From: Acidimicrobiia bacterium
Lineage (GTDB): Bacteria > Actinomycetota > Acidimicrobiia > Spongiisociales > UBA5794
Direction: 5' to 3'
DNA length: 59,322 nucleotides
Assembly (NCBI GenBank): GCA_026985095.1
Contig: JALSQW010000035.1
Span: 1-59,322 of the forward strand
In this document: positions 12,148 through 29,259 of the stretch, one piece after another
Position numbering within the stretch: the stretch's first letter is position 1
How the letters are laid out: the number at the start of each line of letters is the position of its first letter
Position numbers and translations under genes: made by a program
The notes under the pieces: model-generated
The model's database searches: none
Told to the model about the DNA's origin: nothing
The model's input: only the letters and a program-made list of their open reading frames with translations

Positions 12148-13050
12148 GTGGGTGCGGATCTCCTCGTCACGCTCGATGCCGTCATCGTCGCCGTCACCGG
12201 CGTGCAACCTCGGGTGCTCACGGTGGCGGGCACCCCTCCGGCGTTGCCGTCGGGACCGCTGAGCGTCGCCGACGACGAGACGCTCGAGCTGGGTATGCGG
12301 CGGGTCATCGGAGAGCAGACCGGGGTCGAGGTGGGGTACATCGAACAGCTCTACACCTTCGGCGATCGGGAGCGCATCCGGTCCCCGGGCGGCCCCCGGG
12401 TCCTGTCGATCGCGTACCTCGCCCTCGTGCGGGAGGCTTCGACCGCCCCCGAGGCGAGATGGATCGATTGGTACGCCCTGTTGCCGTGGGAGGATCACCG
12501 TGAGGGGGTCCCGGCGATCCTCACCGACCATGTCCTGCCGCGTCTGTCCGACTGGGCGGACCAGGACGTCGACCGGCGGGCACGGGTCTCGGTGAGCTTC
12601 GGGGTCGACACACCATGGGACCCGATCCGGGCCCTCGAGCGGTACGAGCTCCTCTACGAGGCGGGCCTGGTCGCCGAGGCGATCCGCGATCGCCGGGACG
12701 ACCGGCCGGTGCCACCCACCGGCGTCGAGATGGCATCCGACCATCGACGCATCTGCGCGACGGCCCTGGGACGCCTGCGCGGGAAGTTGACGTACCGACC
12801 GGTCGTCTTCGAGCTGATGCCCGACGAGTTCACCTTGTCGGAGCTCCAACGCACGGTCGAGGCGCTCGTGGGGCTACGTCTGCACAAGCAGAACTTCCGC
12901 CGGTTGGTGGACCGCGAGCACCTCGTGGAGGGGACCGGCCGTCACGCGCCGTCGACGGGCGGGCGCCCCGCCGAGCTGTACCGGTTCCGCCGCTCGGTGG
13001 TCGGGGAGCGCCCCCGACCCGGCATGCGCCTCCCTCCCTTCCGCGGCTGA
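12148..13050 (+). CDS. nrtR: NrtR-type Nudix/winged-helix transcriptional regulator of NAD metabolism
   Basis: 300 aa. Residues about 5-150 form a Nudix domain, but the Nudix box is degenerate (M-R-R-V-I-G-E-Q-T-G-V), lacking catalytic glutamates as in NrtR regulators that sense ADP-ribose without hydrolysing it. Residues about 165-235 form the NrtR winged helix (F-E-L-M-P-D-E-F-T-L-S-E-L-Q, then N-F-R-R-L-V). NrtR proteins usually repress NAD biosynthesis or salvage genes. Its position just upstream of nadABC, with a palindrome over the nadA promoter, supports that role. Start is a GTG. The shared strand leaves open whether nrtR is also autoregulated. Confidence 0.87.
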   Translation: MGADLLVTLDAVIVAVTGVQPRVLTVAGTPPALPSGPLSVADDETLELGMRRVIGEQTGVEVGYIEQLYTFGDRERIRSPGGPRVLSIAYLALVREASTAPEARWIDWYALLPWEDHREGVPAILTDHVLPRLSDWADQDVDRRARVSVSFGVDTPWDPIRALERYELLYEAGLVAEAIRDRRDDRPVPPTGVEMASDHRRICATALGRLRGKLTYRPVVFELMPDEFTLSELQRTVEALVGLRLHKQNFRRLVDREHLVEGTGRHAPSTGGRPAELYRFRRSVVGERPRPGMRLPPFRG

Positions 13051-13100
13051 CGACGCGACGACCCCTACGTTCGGGACGCCTCGCCGAACCGTGGGCCAGC

Positions 13101-13120
13101 GAACCCCCAACAGGGGGCTC
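13101..13120. repeat. Inverted repeat preceding the 37-bp array
   Basis: A short hairpin-forming sequence, five C, the loop AACA and five G, stands directly before the first unit of the repeat array. It may be a diverged partial unit. Confidence 0.4.
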
Positions 13121-13247
13121 CCCAACCCAGGGTTCACCACACCCCTAAAGGGGGCACCCCAACCCAGGGTTCACCACACCCCTAAAGGGGGCACCTCAAC
13201 CCAGGGTTCACCACACCCCTAAAGGGGGTTCCCCAACCCAGGGTTCG
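13121..13247. repeat. 37-bp tandem repeat array, copy 1 (three units plus a partial)
   Basis: Units run 13121-13157, 13158-13194 and 13195-13231, then a partial unit from 13232 to about 13247. Each unit holds two small palindromes: AACCC-A-GGGTT, and CCCCT-AA-AGGGG about 8 nt later. Units differ only in the last few bases. The array fills the gap between nrtR and the nadA promoter and ends just before the -35 element. The same repeat occurs at 28344-28508. There are no variable spacers, so it is not a CRISPR. Confidence 0.9.
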
Positions 13248-13255
13248 GGGCGCCC

Positions 13256-13284
13256 TTGCGGAGTGTCAGACTTCGTCCTATCCT
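13256..13284 (+). promoter_or_regulatory. Candidate nadA promoter
   Basis: TTGCGG at 13256-13261 and TATCCT at 13279-13284 are separated by 17 nt, the usual sigma-70-like spacing. The region is noticeably more AT-rich than its surroundings and lies about 40 nt before the nadA start. Confidence 0.5.
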
Positions 13285-13302
13285 GTGCATAAGTAATGCT
13301 CA
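13284..13302. promoter_or_regulatory. Candidate NrtR operator
   Basis: TGTGCAT and ATGCTCA flank a 5-nt centre (AAGTA). The half sites match at six of seven positions when one is reverse-complemented (TG-N-GCAT). The palindrome begins at the last base of the -10 hexamer and covers the likely transcription start, a position expected for repression of nadABC. Confidence 0.5.
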
Positions 13303-13322
13303 GATAGAGCAAAAGGATGGAT

Positions 13323-14285
13323 ATGACCCTCGATATCACCCACCGTCTCGACGGGGTCCTCCCCGACGTCGAGATCGCCGCCATCGCCCCCACCATCGCC
13401 GAGATCGAAGCCCTCAAGGACCAACGCAACGCCGTCGTTCTGGCCCACAACTACATGACGCCCGACATCTTCCACGGCGTCGCCGACGTCCGCGGCGACT
13501 CGCTGGCGCTGGCCCGGCGGGCCGCCGACACCGACGCCGACGTCATCGTCATGGCCGGGGTCCATTTCATGGCCGAGACCGCCAAGATCGTCAACCCGAA
13601 CAAGACCGTCCTCATCCCCGACCTCGAAGCCGGATGCTCGCTGGCCGACTCGATCACCCCCGCCGACGTTCGACTCCTTCGCGAGCGGTACCCCGACACG
13701 CCCGTCGTGACCTACGTCAACACGTCGGCAGCCGTCAAAGCCGAATGCGACATCACCTGCACGTCCTCGAACGCCCTCGAGGTCGTCGAATCCCTCGGCA
13801 CCGACCGGGTCATCTTCCTCCCCGACCGGTACCTGGGGCGGTGGGTCGCCTCCCAGACGGACGTCGAGATCGTCCTGTGGCACGGGAGCTGCGAGGTCCA
13901 CGAACGGTTCACCGGCGCCGAGCTCGCCGGCTACCGCCGCACGCATCCGGGCATCCGGATCATCGCCCATCCCGAATGTCCGCCCGACGTCCTCGCCGAA
14001 GCCGACTTCGTCGGATCCACCTCGGGGATGATCGACTGGGTACACACCGAACGACCTCGCCAGGTCGTCATGGTGACCGAATGCTCCATGGCCGACAACG
14101 TCGCCGTCGAAGCCCCGGCCACCGAGTTCGTGCGACCCTGCAACCTGTGCCCCCACATGAAGCGCATCACCCTCGCCGGCATCCGCGACGCCCTGCGCGA
14201 CCTCCGGCACGAGGTCGTCGTCGACCCCCGGATCGCCGTGCGCGCACGCCGGGCGGTGGACCGGATGCTGGCGGTGGGACGATGA
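13323..14285 (+). CDS. nadA: Quinolinate synthase NadA
   Basis: 320 aa. Condenses iminoaspartate with dihydroxyacetone phosphate to quinolinate using a [4Fe-4S] cluster. Cluster ligands are seen as Cys105 (L-E-A-G-C-S-L-A-D), Cys219 (H-P-E-C-P) and Cys276 (C-N-L-C-P-H-M). Other family motifs are A-H-N-Y and V-N-T-S-A-x-V-K-A. The ATG at 13323 has an AAAGGA site 5 nt upstream; the ATG at 13317 would add two residues and is less well placed. First gene of nadABC, overlapping nadB by 4 nt. Confidence 0.96.
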
Positions 14286-26633: not shown

Positions 26634-28331
26634 ATGCCGTCCATCCCCCACCGGAGCCGACGCCGGGCCCTGTCCATCCTCGCCGCCTTCGTGGCGGCGA
26701 CCTCCCTGCTGAGCGCGGTTCCGGCCGCCGCCGCCGATGGCGTCGGACTCGTCGACCCCGCCACGGGACGGTGGCGTCTCCGCCAGGCGTCGGGCGCCAC
26801 GACGAGCTTCTACTTCGGCAACCCCGGAGACGTCCCGTTCACCGGCGACTGGGACTGCGACGGTGTCGACACCCCCGGCCTGTACCGGATCTCCGACGGC
26901 TTCGCCTACCTTCGCAACGCCAATATGGCCGGGGTCGCCGATATCTCCTTCTTCTTCGGCGACCCCGGGGACATCCCGATCGCCGGGGACTTCGACGGCG
27001 ACGGGTGCGACACCCTCGGCATCTACCGGGCGTCGACCCAGGAGTTCCACATCATCAACCGTCTCGGAACCGATGGCGGCGGGCTGGGCCGGGCCGACTA
27101 CTCGTTCGTCTTCGGGAACCCCGGGGACCAGCCGTTCGTCGGCGACTTCGATGGCGACGGCATCGACGAGGTCGGTCTCCACCGCGGGTCGACCGGATTC
27201 GTCTACTACCGAGACACCCTGACGGCCGGCACCGCCGACCACGCGTTCTTCTTCGGCGATCCGGGCGACCGTTTCGTCGCCGGCGATTGGGGACCCGCCG
27301 ATGGGGTCGACACACCCGGCATCTTTCGACCTCGGGACGCCGCCTTCTACCTCCGCTACGTCAACAGCGAGGGCACCGCCGATGAGACCTTCCCGATGGG
27401 CTCGTCGACATGGCTGCCGATCGCCGGCGAGTGGGGGAACCTCCCCACCCCGCCGTGCACGGTGTTCCCCGACGACAACATCTGGAACGCCCGGATCGAC
27501 ACCTTGCCGGTCGATCCCCGATCCGACGACTACATCGCCACGATCGGGGCCTCGACCACGCTCCACCCCGATTTCGGGTCCGGTGAATGGCCGCCCGGCT
27601 CGGGTTCCCCGATCGGGATCCCGTTCGTGACCGTCGACGGCGGACAGCCCGACGTGCCGATCATCTACACGGACTACGGCGACGAGAGCGACCCGGGACC
27701 GTTCCCGATCCCCGCCGACGCTCCGATCGAGGGCGGCTCCGGGGGGACCGGAGATCGTCACGTCCTCGTCCTCGACGACGAGGACTGCGTCCTCTACGAG
27801 CTGTACAACGCGTTCCCGCAGGCCGACGGCTCGTGGAACGCGTCGTCCGGCGCCCGCTACGACCTGCGTGCCAACGACCTGCGGCCTGACGGTTGGACAT
27901 CGGCCGACGCCGCCGGGCTCCCGATCCTGCCCGGCCTCGTCCGCTACGACGAGGTGGCCTCCGGCGAGATCACCCACGCCATCCGGTTCACTGCCGACCA
28001 GACGCAACGGGCGTACGTGTGGCCGGCCCGTCACTTCGCGTCCAGCATCACCGATCCCCGGTACCCGCCGATGGGGCAGCGCTTCCGGCTGAAGTCGAGC
28101 TTCGACACCTCCGGGTTCTCCCCGGAGGTGAAGGTCATCCTGGAGGCCTTCAAGCGCTACGGCCTCATCCTCGCCGACAACGGCTCGTCGTGGTTCGTCT
28201 CGGGCGCCCCCGACGATCGGTGGGACAACGACATGTTGCGCGAGCTGAAGTCCGTGCCAGGCAGCGCCTTCGAAGCCGTCGATGTGTCGTCCCTGATGGC
28301 CGACCCGAACTCAGCGAGGGTGACCCCCTGA
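26634..28331 (+). CDS. Secreted protein with FG-GAP/VCBS-like repeats and an unrecognised C-terminal domain
   Basis: 565 aa. A Tat/Sec-type signal peptide (R-R-R-A-L-S-I-L-A-A-F, cleavage about A-A-A-D near 35) is followed by about five repeats of some 45-50 residues. Each repeat has F-F-F-G-(N/D)-P-G-D, then G-D-(W/F)-D-G-D-G-(I/V)-D-x-x-G-(I/L)-(Y/F/H)-R, Asp-rich loops resembling calcium-binding integrin-like blades. Residues about 285-565 form a second globular domain with D-D-N-I-W-N-A-R-I-D and Y-D-L-R-A-N-D-L-R-P-D-G-W-T-S-A-D-A-A-G that I cannot name. A GGAGG site precedes the ATG. Likely extracellular and carbohydrate- or surface-associated, by inference only. Confidence 0.82.
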   Translation: MPSIPHRSRRRALSILAAFVAATSLLSAVPAAAADGVGLVDPATGRWRLRQASGATTSFYFGNPGDVPFTGDWDCDGVDTPGLYRISDGFAYLRNANMAGVADISFFFGDPGDIPIAGDFDGDGCDTLGIYRASTQEFHIINRLGTDGGGLGRADYSFVFGNPGDQPFVGDFDGDGIDEVGLHRGSTGFVYYRDTLTAGTADHAFFFGDPGDRFVAGDWGPADGVDTPGIFRPRDAAFYLRYVNSEGTADETFPMGSSTWLPIAGEWGNLPTPPCTVFPDDNIWNARIDTLPVDPRSDDYIATIGASTTLHPDFGSGEWPPGSGSPIGIPFVTVDGGQPDVPIIYTDYGDESDPGPFPIPADAPIEGGSGGTGDRHVLVLDDEDCVLYELYNAFPQADGSWNASSGARYDLRANDLRPDGWTSADAAGLPILPGLVRYDEVASGEITHAIRFTADQTQRAYVWPARHFASSITDPRYPPMGQRFRLKSSFDTSGFSPEVKVILEAFKRYGLILADNGSSWFVSGAPDDRWDNDMLRELKSVPGSAFEAVDVSSLMADPNSARVTP

Positions 28332-28343
28332 CCTACCGTCCCG

Positions 28344-28508
28344 CCAACCCAGGGTTCACCACACCCCTAAAGGGAGCTCACCAACCCAGGGTTCACCACA
28401 CCCCTAAAGGGAGCTCACCAACCCAGGGTTCACCACACCCCTAAAGGGGGGTCCCCAACCCAGGGTTCACCACACCCCTAAAGGGGGGTCCACAACCCAG
28501 GGTTCGCC
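28344..28508. repeat. 37-bp tandem repeat array, copy 2 (four units plus a partial)
   Basis: Units run 28344-28380, 28381-28417, 28418-28454 and 28455-28491, then a partial unit to about 28508. They contain the same two palindromes as the array at 13121: AACCC-A-GGGTT, and CCCCT-AA-AGGG(G). The first two units end in an AGCTCA variant; the last two end in GGGGTCC. The array fills the gap between two convergent genes. Confidence 0.9.
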
Positions 28509-28515
28509 AGACAGG

Positions 28516-29259
28516 TCAGTCGGAGCGCCACTCGGCGACTTCGAGGCCGAGGCCGAGGACGACGTCGAGGAAGGTCTCGGCGACGTCGTCCACGGTGATC
28601 ACGCCCCGTAGCTCCTCGAACGCCGGGTCGACCGCCACCAGAGCTCCGGCCGCCAACGCCAACGCCTCCAGGTGGGCGGCGTGGTCGGCGACCGCCACGA
28701 TCCGTTCGCGCGGGTGCTCGGTGGCCGCCACATGCACCACCGCCCCCGCCCACTCACCCTGCGTCGGCGCCGCGAACCGCCGCACGACACCGGACCGCGC
28801 CCGCTCCGCGGCCCACAGCGGTCCGACGGGATCGGGGAAGCGGCTCGGATGGCCACGCCGGAGCGGGCGGCCAGGCTCGGTCCACACGATGTCGATCGGG
28901 CTCCCCTCACCGGCCCCTGCCGCCTCATGAGCCGCCAAGGACGGTGCGATCGCCGATCCGAGGTTGGCACCGACCAGGACGGCCGCATCCACGGCGGCCT
29001 GGACCCCGGCGGCGGGACGATCCACCCACGTCACCGCGGGGATCCCAGCCTCCGCCGCCGCGGCGAGCACGTCCGACGGGTCCTCGGCGTCGGTCACCAA
29101 CACGTCGTAGGCCGACAGGTCGAGGACCCGGACCAGACGATCGTCCTCGTCCGACGGGTTCTGGTCCACGAGACCCAGGAGCTCCAGCGTCCGCTCGGCG
29201 AGGAGGATCCGCCCCGCCCTCGTTCCGACCTCGGACCGCTGATCCAGCGCGATCCTCAC
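28516..29259 (-). CDS. Hypothetical protein (247 aa)
   Basis: A Val/Ala-rich soluble protein with alternating beta-alpha character, for example Y-D-V-L-V-T-D-A-E-D-P-S-D-V-L-A-A-A-A-E-A-G-I-P-A-V-T-W-V, suggestive of a nucleotide-binding-like alpha/beta fold without a recognisable glycine loop. I do not recognise the family. The GTG at 29259 is set by a 4-nt overlap with the stop of a small upstream membrane ORF; the longer frame upstream is G/R-rich and not protein-like. Stop lies just after repeat array 2. Confidence 0.65.
   Translation of the reverse strand: MRIALDQRSEVGTRAGRILLAERTLELLGLVDQNPSDEDDRLVRVLDLSAYDVLVTDAEDPSDVLAAAAEAGIPAVTWVDRPAAGVQAAVDAAVLVGANLGSAIAPSLAAHEAAGAGEGSPIDIVWTEPGRPLRRGHPSRFPDPVGPLWAAERARSGVVRRFAAPTQGEWAGAVVHVAATEHPRERIVAVADHAAHLEALALAAGALVAVDPAFEELRGVITVDDVAETFLDVVLGLGLEVAEWRSD

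Follow-up and report, generated by a model that had tools for sequence, protein, structure and literature searches.

A palindromic array between nrtR and nadA

The window, a stretch of 59,322 nucleotides, carries a tandem array of short palindromes between an nrtR-like gene and nadA, and a second array downstream. The features are as follows.

12148–13050, + strand: nrtR-like regulator gene (PF21906 NrtR_WHD, E = 2.8e-20)
13086–13101, + strand: end-unit palindrome E1, GAACCGTGGGCCAGCG, an imperfect relative of the core
13105–13116, + strand: end-unit hairpin, CCCCAACAGGGG
13124–13245, + strand: tandem array of four AACCCAGGGTT cores and three CCCCTAAAGGGG hairpins at 37-bp spacing
13294–13315, + strand: palindromic TAATGCTCA..GAGCA box upstream of nadA, seen by eye
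13317–14285, + strand: nadA (PF02445, E = 6.6e-114)
28346–28504, + strand: second array, flanked by two convergent genes; five AACCCAGGGTT cores with a pitch of 37 bp

The original prediction described three 37-bp units and a partial one, each with compact palindromes. The array is real: exact cores lie at 13124–13134, 13161–13171, 13198–13208 and 13235–13245 with a pitch of 37 bp throughout, and each core pair encloses one hairpin (C4-N4-G4; at 13142, 13179 and 13216). Its extent was drawn too narrowly, since a diverged end unit continues it leftward from 13086. When one mismatch was allowed, the 12-mer core was found nine times in the whole window, compared to 0.07 expected from shuffles. 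Of the occurrences of the E1 motif in the 1.29 Mb examined, 24 lie no more than 150 bp from one of 78 arrays and two lie elsewhere.

The array is intergenic, as had been proposed, with nrtR stopping at 13050 and nadA beginning at 13317–13323. It was also placed just before the nadA −35 element. The candidate promoter, with TTGCGG at 13256 as −35 and TATCCT as −10, was read by eye; a consensus scan for sigma-70 at nadA gave no site. The palindromic box is probably an NrtR operator, a name that we infer. By eye, similar TAATGCTC..GAG boxes are found in most of the relatives' nadA upstream regions that lack an array.

Copies across the genome

In its own genome, G000 (2.93 Mb, 70 contigs), the window makes up contig C35. 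The second array confirms that the unit recurs 15 kb away, although its units are not all identical to those at nadA, being the same or differing by a few bases. The predicted proteins on either side of it (26634–28331, + strand; 28516–29259, − strand) have no Pfam match. A 30-mer of the unit (at most three mismatches) matched G000 80 times and a shorter motif (at most two mismatches) 251 times, while the reversed-pattern controls gave no match in either search. The paired core, AACCCWGGGTT, a hairpin of about 25 nt and AACCCWGGGTT again, occurs 112 times. The possibility that the unit occurs nowhere else is thus clearly contradicted, as dispersed copies are present in its own genome and in relatives.

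At least 41 clusters were tabulated in G000 (at most one mismatch, among the matches listed), every one of them between predicted genes. Genes were called with a codon-pair model trained on DNA fetched around the listed arrays. In this fetched DNA, eight cores fall within predicted genes, all in the sister species G037 and none in G000. Clustered cores outnumber single cores (149 versus 3 in G000, 60 versus 4 in G019, 93 versus 2 in G037), a ratio that is biased by the fetching of DNA around known arrays.

Many contigs end in or beside arrays (G037 C14, C63, C80, C87, C180, C185 and C220; G000 C19/C32, C53/C38 and C23/C21), suggesting that the repeat fragments assemblies, and in the cell the arrays may exceed their assembled length. 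From the comparison with G037, the contig-end pairs C19/C32 and C53/C38 are probably one array each; that C23/C21 is likewise one array is a guess.

Architecture and distribution in the order

Among the 138 genomes of the order, 31 have the exact paired core (20–30 between the two copies), compared to 1 of 257 in the rest of the class. The pattern misses diverged copies, and the figure of 31 possibly overcounts the family, as several f2 genomes (G052–G055) have close-packed palindromes in another layout. In these genomes, the AACCCWGGGTT palindromes stand about one base apart, for example AACCCTGGGTTTAACCCAGGGTT.

Several other genera, with G117, G119, G123 and G112 as examples, have a single element as the basic form: AACCCAGGGTT, a hairpin of about 25 nt and AACCCTGGGTT, together a 47-bp inverted repeat with arms that are palindromic in their own right. 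In the fetched loci, cores follow one another at 36 bp in 9 of 12 genomes (G019 with one spacing of 35 bp), at 37 bp in 100 of 109 units in G000, and at 35 bp in G051 and G120. Tandem growth by 36–37-bp units is seen in genus g1 and in G019, and many neighboring cores in the G000 and G019 arrays are in direct order. Some 62-bp spacings in G037 arrays, such as L126 8637 and L128 (C163:11354), arise from a further E1 end unit (GAACCGTGGGCTGGC or a similar one) that begins within the array. These internal E1 units look as if elements had inserted into or joined one another.

Copies in Actinomycetota bacterium HKST-UBA45 were judged uninformative, with the 30-mer pattern occurring once and the looser pattern twice, beside a tRNA gene. 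Here (L061 2090–2300), AACCCAGGGTTC and a C4..G4 hairpin form part of a longer repeat directly behind the tRNA gene, in two copies only.

Inspection of 20 elements of 47 bp from 15 genomes, chosen by equal length and often symmetric ones rather than at random, revealed ends that are invariant save for the center base and an interior that varies. Interior cells are paired in 87% of cases, compared to 74% after shuffling. Cells with a double change number 60 versus 25.5 in shuffles, and the covariation score is 0.314 versus 0.106, a signal that drops clearly after a shift of one column. Counted by pairs instead of cells, double changes (10 versus 9.2) are not above shuffles. The inner hairpin is genome-specific, and its pairing is kept via compensatory change. 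Fold energies are −52.4 kcal/mol (z −14) for the G117 element and −42.8 kcal/mol (z −10) for the G119 element. The window unit folds far more weakly (−20.7 kcal/mol, z −1.9), indicating that the tandem form is less symmetric.

Concerted evolution at shared loci

G000 and G037 have arrays at 14 common loci. Between the two species, interiors at the same locus are no more alike than those at different loci (0.41 versus 0.40), whereas interior similarity reaches 0.63 within G000, 0.69 within G037 and 0.86 within one array. Positions are therefore held in common while interiors have been replaced by each species' own type, which is concerted evolution, by conversion or repeated re-insertion. For five more array contigs of G037, nothing corresponding was present in the fetched DNA of G000. 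In G019, compared only where G000 had been fetched, 1 of 22 clusters lies in the same gap (C64 versus C18:27950).

G037 carries an array upstream of nadA with its own interior and in the same orientation. No core was found within 420 bp upstream of nadA in the 12 other genomes of the family with a nadA match, and by eye seven of these 12 have nrtR directly upstream of nadA. A nadA match was obtained in only 14 of the 50 genomes of family f1 (36 without), so that in this family either de novo NAD synthesis or the detection of it is patchy.

Position beside gene ends

Mapping the copies against gene ends revealed that they lie preferentially just behind stop codons. The share of clusters with at least one neighboring stop codon is 32 of 35 in G000 (among the matches listed), 10 of 12 in G037, 17 of 18 in G019 and, for seven other genomes, 18 of 20. 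From cluster to stop, median distances range from 11 to 13.5 bp (13.5 bp in G000, 12 bp in the seven other genomes). As background, a gene 3′ end adjoins 176 of 274 G000 gaps of at least 60 bp, giving an excess at p = 2.5e-4 in G000; this background contains the array gaps themselves, and clusters at contig ends without two neighbors were left out. The excess is significant in G000, G019 and the seven other genomes, and not in G037 (p = 0.14). Convergent gaps are over-represented (11 of 35 array gaps versus 34 of 274), whereas divergent ones are scarcer than in the background (3 of 35 versus 98 of 274).

These positions would suit bidirectional transcription terminators or protectors of mRNA 3′ ends that are kept behind stop codons, and the very stable folds of the G117 and G119 elements point the same way. 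We consider this reading possible but doubtful as an account of the arrays. Independent terminators would not share a genome-specific interior, or switch together to the type of their species. At C32:34939, a hairpin of ordinary appearance already stands between the gene end and the array (by eye). Array strand follows replication and ignores gene strand, as described below, although, being palindromic, the element could be active on either strand. At the nadA array itself, no intrinsic T-tract terminator was detected, the sole hit being at 13297–13311, outside the array. Together with the absence of a core in 12 relatives and the gene-independent strand, this speaks against one of the three roles first suggested for the array, that it is there as a tandem terminator insulating nadABC from nrtR. 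A terminator, insulator or RNA-protection effect is possible from the position but would be secondary.

Orientation and replication

Orientation was counted for 36 unambiguous arrays in G000, among the matches listed, after five single or mixed clusters had been dropped. Neighboring arrays on a contig have the same orientation in 18 of 19 pairs, a value reached by 9 of 200,000 label shuffles, in a test that is weakened by arrays 1–3 kb apart, perhaps local duplicates, and by three split arrays counted twice. The sole discordant pair lies on C23, between 57 and 154 kb, and spans the origin genes (dnaA/rpmH) at 67–76 kb. On this contig gyrB, dnaA and rpmH were read by sequence motif, and further genes, which we take to be gyrA, recF and dnaN, were named from the usual gene order at origins. 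On either side, AACCCAGGGTTC is directed towards the origin. Replichores are known directly for C23 only. GC skew agrees with array orientation in G000 (p = 0.0024) and G019 (p = 0.005), and this agreement fails in G037 (p = 0.30). Base composition linked to replication could account in part for the polarity of the C-rich strand. Array strand matches that of the neighboring gene in 32 of 67 comparisons in G000, indicating that transcription does not set array orientation. In G000, array orientation follows the direction of replication and not the gene strand. The rule is not strict, since at two of the 14 loci in common with G037 the array is inverted against its genes: C35:28346 (the second array of the window) and C19:34472.

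KOPS, the FtsK-orienting sequences, have a strand polarity from origin to terminus. The part of this pattern observed in G000 is polarity around the origin and within contigs. The arrays might be read as binding targets, oriented with replication, of a conserved protein, of the KOPS kind or in nucleoid architecture, and a protein-binding array was among the roles first suggested. Besides the polarity in G000, the invariant cores would fit such a protein, the 11-bp palindrome being unchanged order-wide at a fixed 35–37 bp spacing while the interior varies. Several observations make this reading unlikely. There are only about 35–40 array loci in 2.9 Mb, among the matches listed, and the exact pair is missing from 107 of 138 genomes of the order; an essential role in segregation is therefore improbable. 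The origin contig C23 itself bears six clusters, with no enrichment shown at the terminus, two of the 14 shared loci are flipped, and nothing about a binding site calls for a hairpin interior peculiar to each genome.

A role in regulating nadABC, with the array bound by NrtR or another regulator or setting read-through from nrtR, is highly improbable: in G000 and G037 alike the array does separate nrtR from the nadA promoter, but it is absent before nadA in the 12 other family genomes, the TAATGCTC..GAG box is kept in most of them (by eye), and the same unit stands at dozens of unrelated loci. The repeat is not a nadABC-specific feature.

A probable REPIN-like element without the usual transposase

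REP and REPIN elements are explained by RAYT transposases, and precise excision is reported for REPINs. We found no match to the Y1 transposase family (PF01797) in G000, in a search whose controls, including E. coli, were positive. Among the genomes of the order, 1 of 138 has a match, and that one lacks the paired core. Mobilization by a RAYT or IS200 enzyme was rejected because of this absence in G000 and in 137 of 138 order genomes. Carriage by phage or plasmid was rejected because no match was obtained in viral contigs, plasmids or phages, although the two BLAST searches may have lost power to low-complexity filtering. A CRISPR array was rejected because the segments between cores resemble each other within an array (score 0.86) and are not unique spacers. 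Rfam gave only sub-threshold matches at the window array and only tRNAs in six other loci. As to a MITE, which has terminal inverted repeats and a target-site duplication, inverted ends are present, and by eye no target duplication was seen in the 20 loci inspected; comparison of close relatives yielded no empty site.

Of the three roles first suggested, a REP-like element is the best supported, as the repeat is dispersed, intergenic, order-wide and hairpin-forming. We therefore favor, with a probability of roughly 0.7, a REPIN-like dispersed non-coding hairpin repeat without the usual transposase, probably copied via single-stranded DNA at the replication fork and tandemly expanded at this locus. 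Two near-perfect 11-bp AACCCWGGGTT palindromes at fixed spacing around a variable hairpin would fold as a whole into one long hairpin. Since the Y1 family is missing, we infer a route through fork single-stranded DNA with a putative end-recognizing factor: copies would spread or convert one another on the exposed lagging-strand template, and a putative conserved factor would read the AACCCWGGGTT ends. Together, such a route and such a factor would explain the polarity and the genome-wide homogenization. At nadA, the element would have inserted, and be tolerated, in the spacer that separates nrtR from the nadA promoter.

A more general form of this reading can be offered only tentatively. An order-wide class of REPIN-like elements might spread or homogenize without a Y1 transposase, using lagging-strand single-stranded DNA and the fork or annealing machinery of the host in a recombineering-like conversion. 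This would leave hairpin arrays of fixed orientation that expand in tandem, with concerted interiors and constant AACCCWGGGTT ends. If true, a homogenized family without RAYTs and with replication polarity would represent another way to copy short palindromes chromosome-wide. The role of fork-exposed single-stranded DNA in the spread of small repeats becomes testable by genome comparison, and copies that point the same way relative to replication hint at the mode of spread of such elements.

Relation to known repeats

Searches of the open literature on the likely taxon or Actinobacteria, the core letters, REP, orientation or replication returned no description of this repeat. The architecture is that of a REPIN; new are the lack of a known transposase, the order-constant ends and the replication polarity in G000. 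In the sections of the REPIN report used here, REPINs are REP doublets that form hairpins in Pseudomonas fluorescens SBW25, and their spread is attributed to Y1 transposases, the RAYTs (PMC3116915). On that description the repeats share inverted conserved palindromic ends, a variable spacer in which length and hairpin capacity matter, frequent compensatory changes, occurrence as doublets and not singlets, and extragenic dispersal, sometimes in ordered clusters. The differences are that REPINs are tied to RAYTs (PMC3116915), which are essentially absent here, that spacing here is 35–37 bp, about half of the 71 or 110 bp of REPINs, and that the ends here are constant across an order while orientation follows replication in G000.

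The REP/BIME elements associated with TnpA-REP, in the excerpts of PMC6006769 that treat them, are likewise intergenic palindromes, sometimes in arrays. Y1 enzymes require single-stranded DNA, of which the lagging strand is an important source, and IS200/IS605 elements target the lagging strand (PMC6006769); the mechanism proposed above would borrow from these enzymes. By contrast, the hairpin of canonical REPs is accompanied by a GT[AG]G foot, which was not seen by eye beside the cores here, and no REPtron-like Y1 gene was found here; atypical REP subclasses without this foot exist (PMC6006769). The Bordetella BRE, according to the portion of PMC3110155 considered, resemble the present repeat as intergenic GC-rich repeats with a tandem copy number that varies between related species, and differ from it in being 75–91 bp long and in an orientation that is not aligned with the replication fork.

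The palindromic ends of the present repeat are like those of elements derived from IS200/IS605, which are associated with palindromes, have palindromic ends and move in a manner linked to replication; unlike these, it stands in a genome, G000, without a Y1 transposase. At C64:26963 in G000 (L098 8946–8985), one isolated core, beside an E1-like end, is enclosed in an inverted repeat that is perfect over 31 bases, GGGCTCCCCGAACCC-A-GGGTTCGGGGAGCCC.
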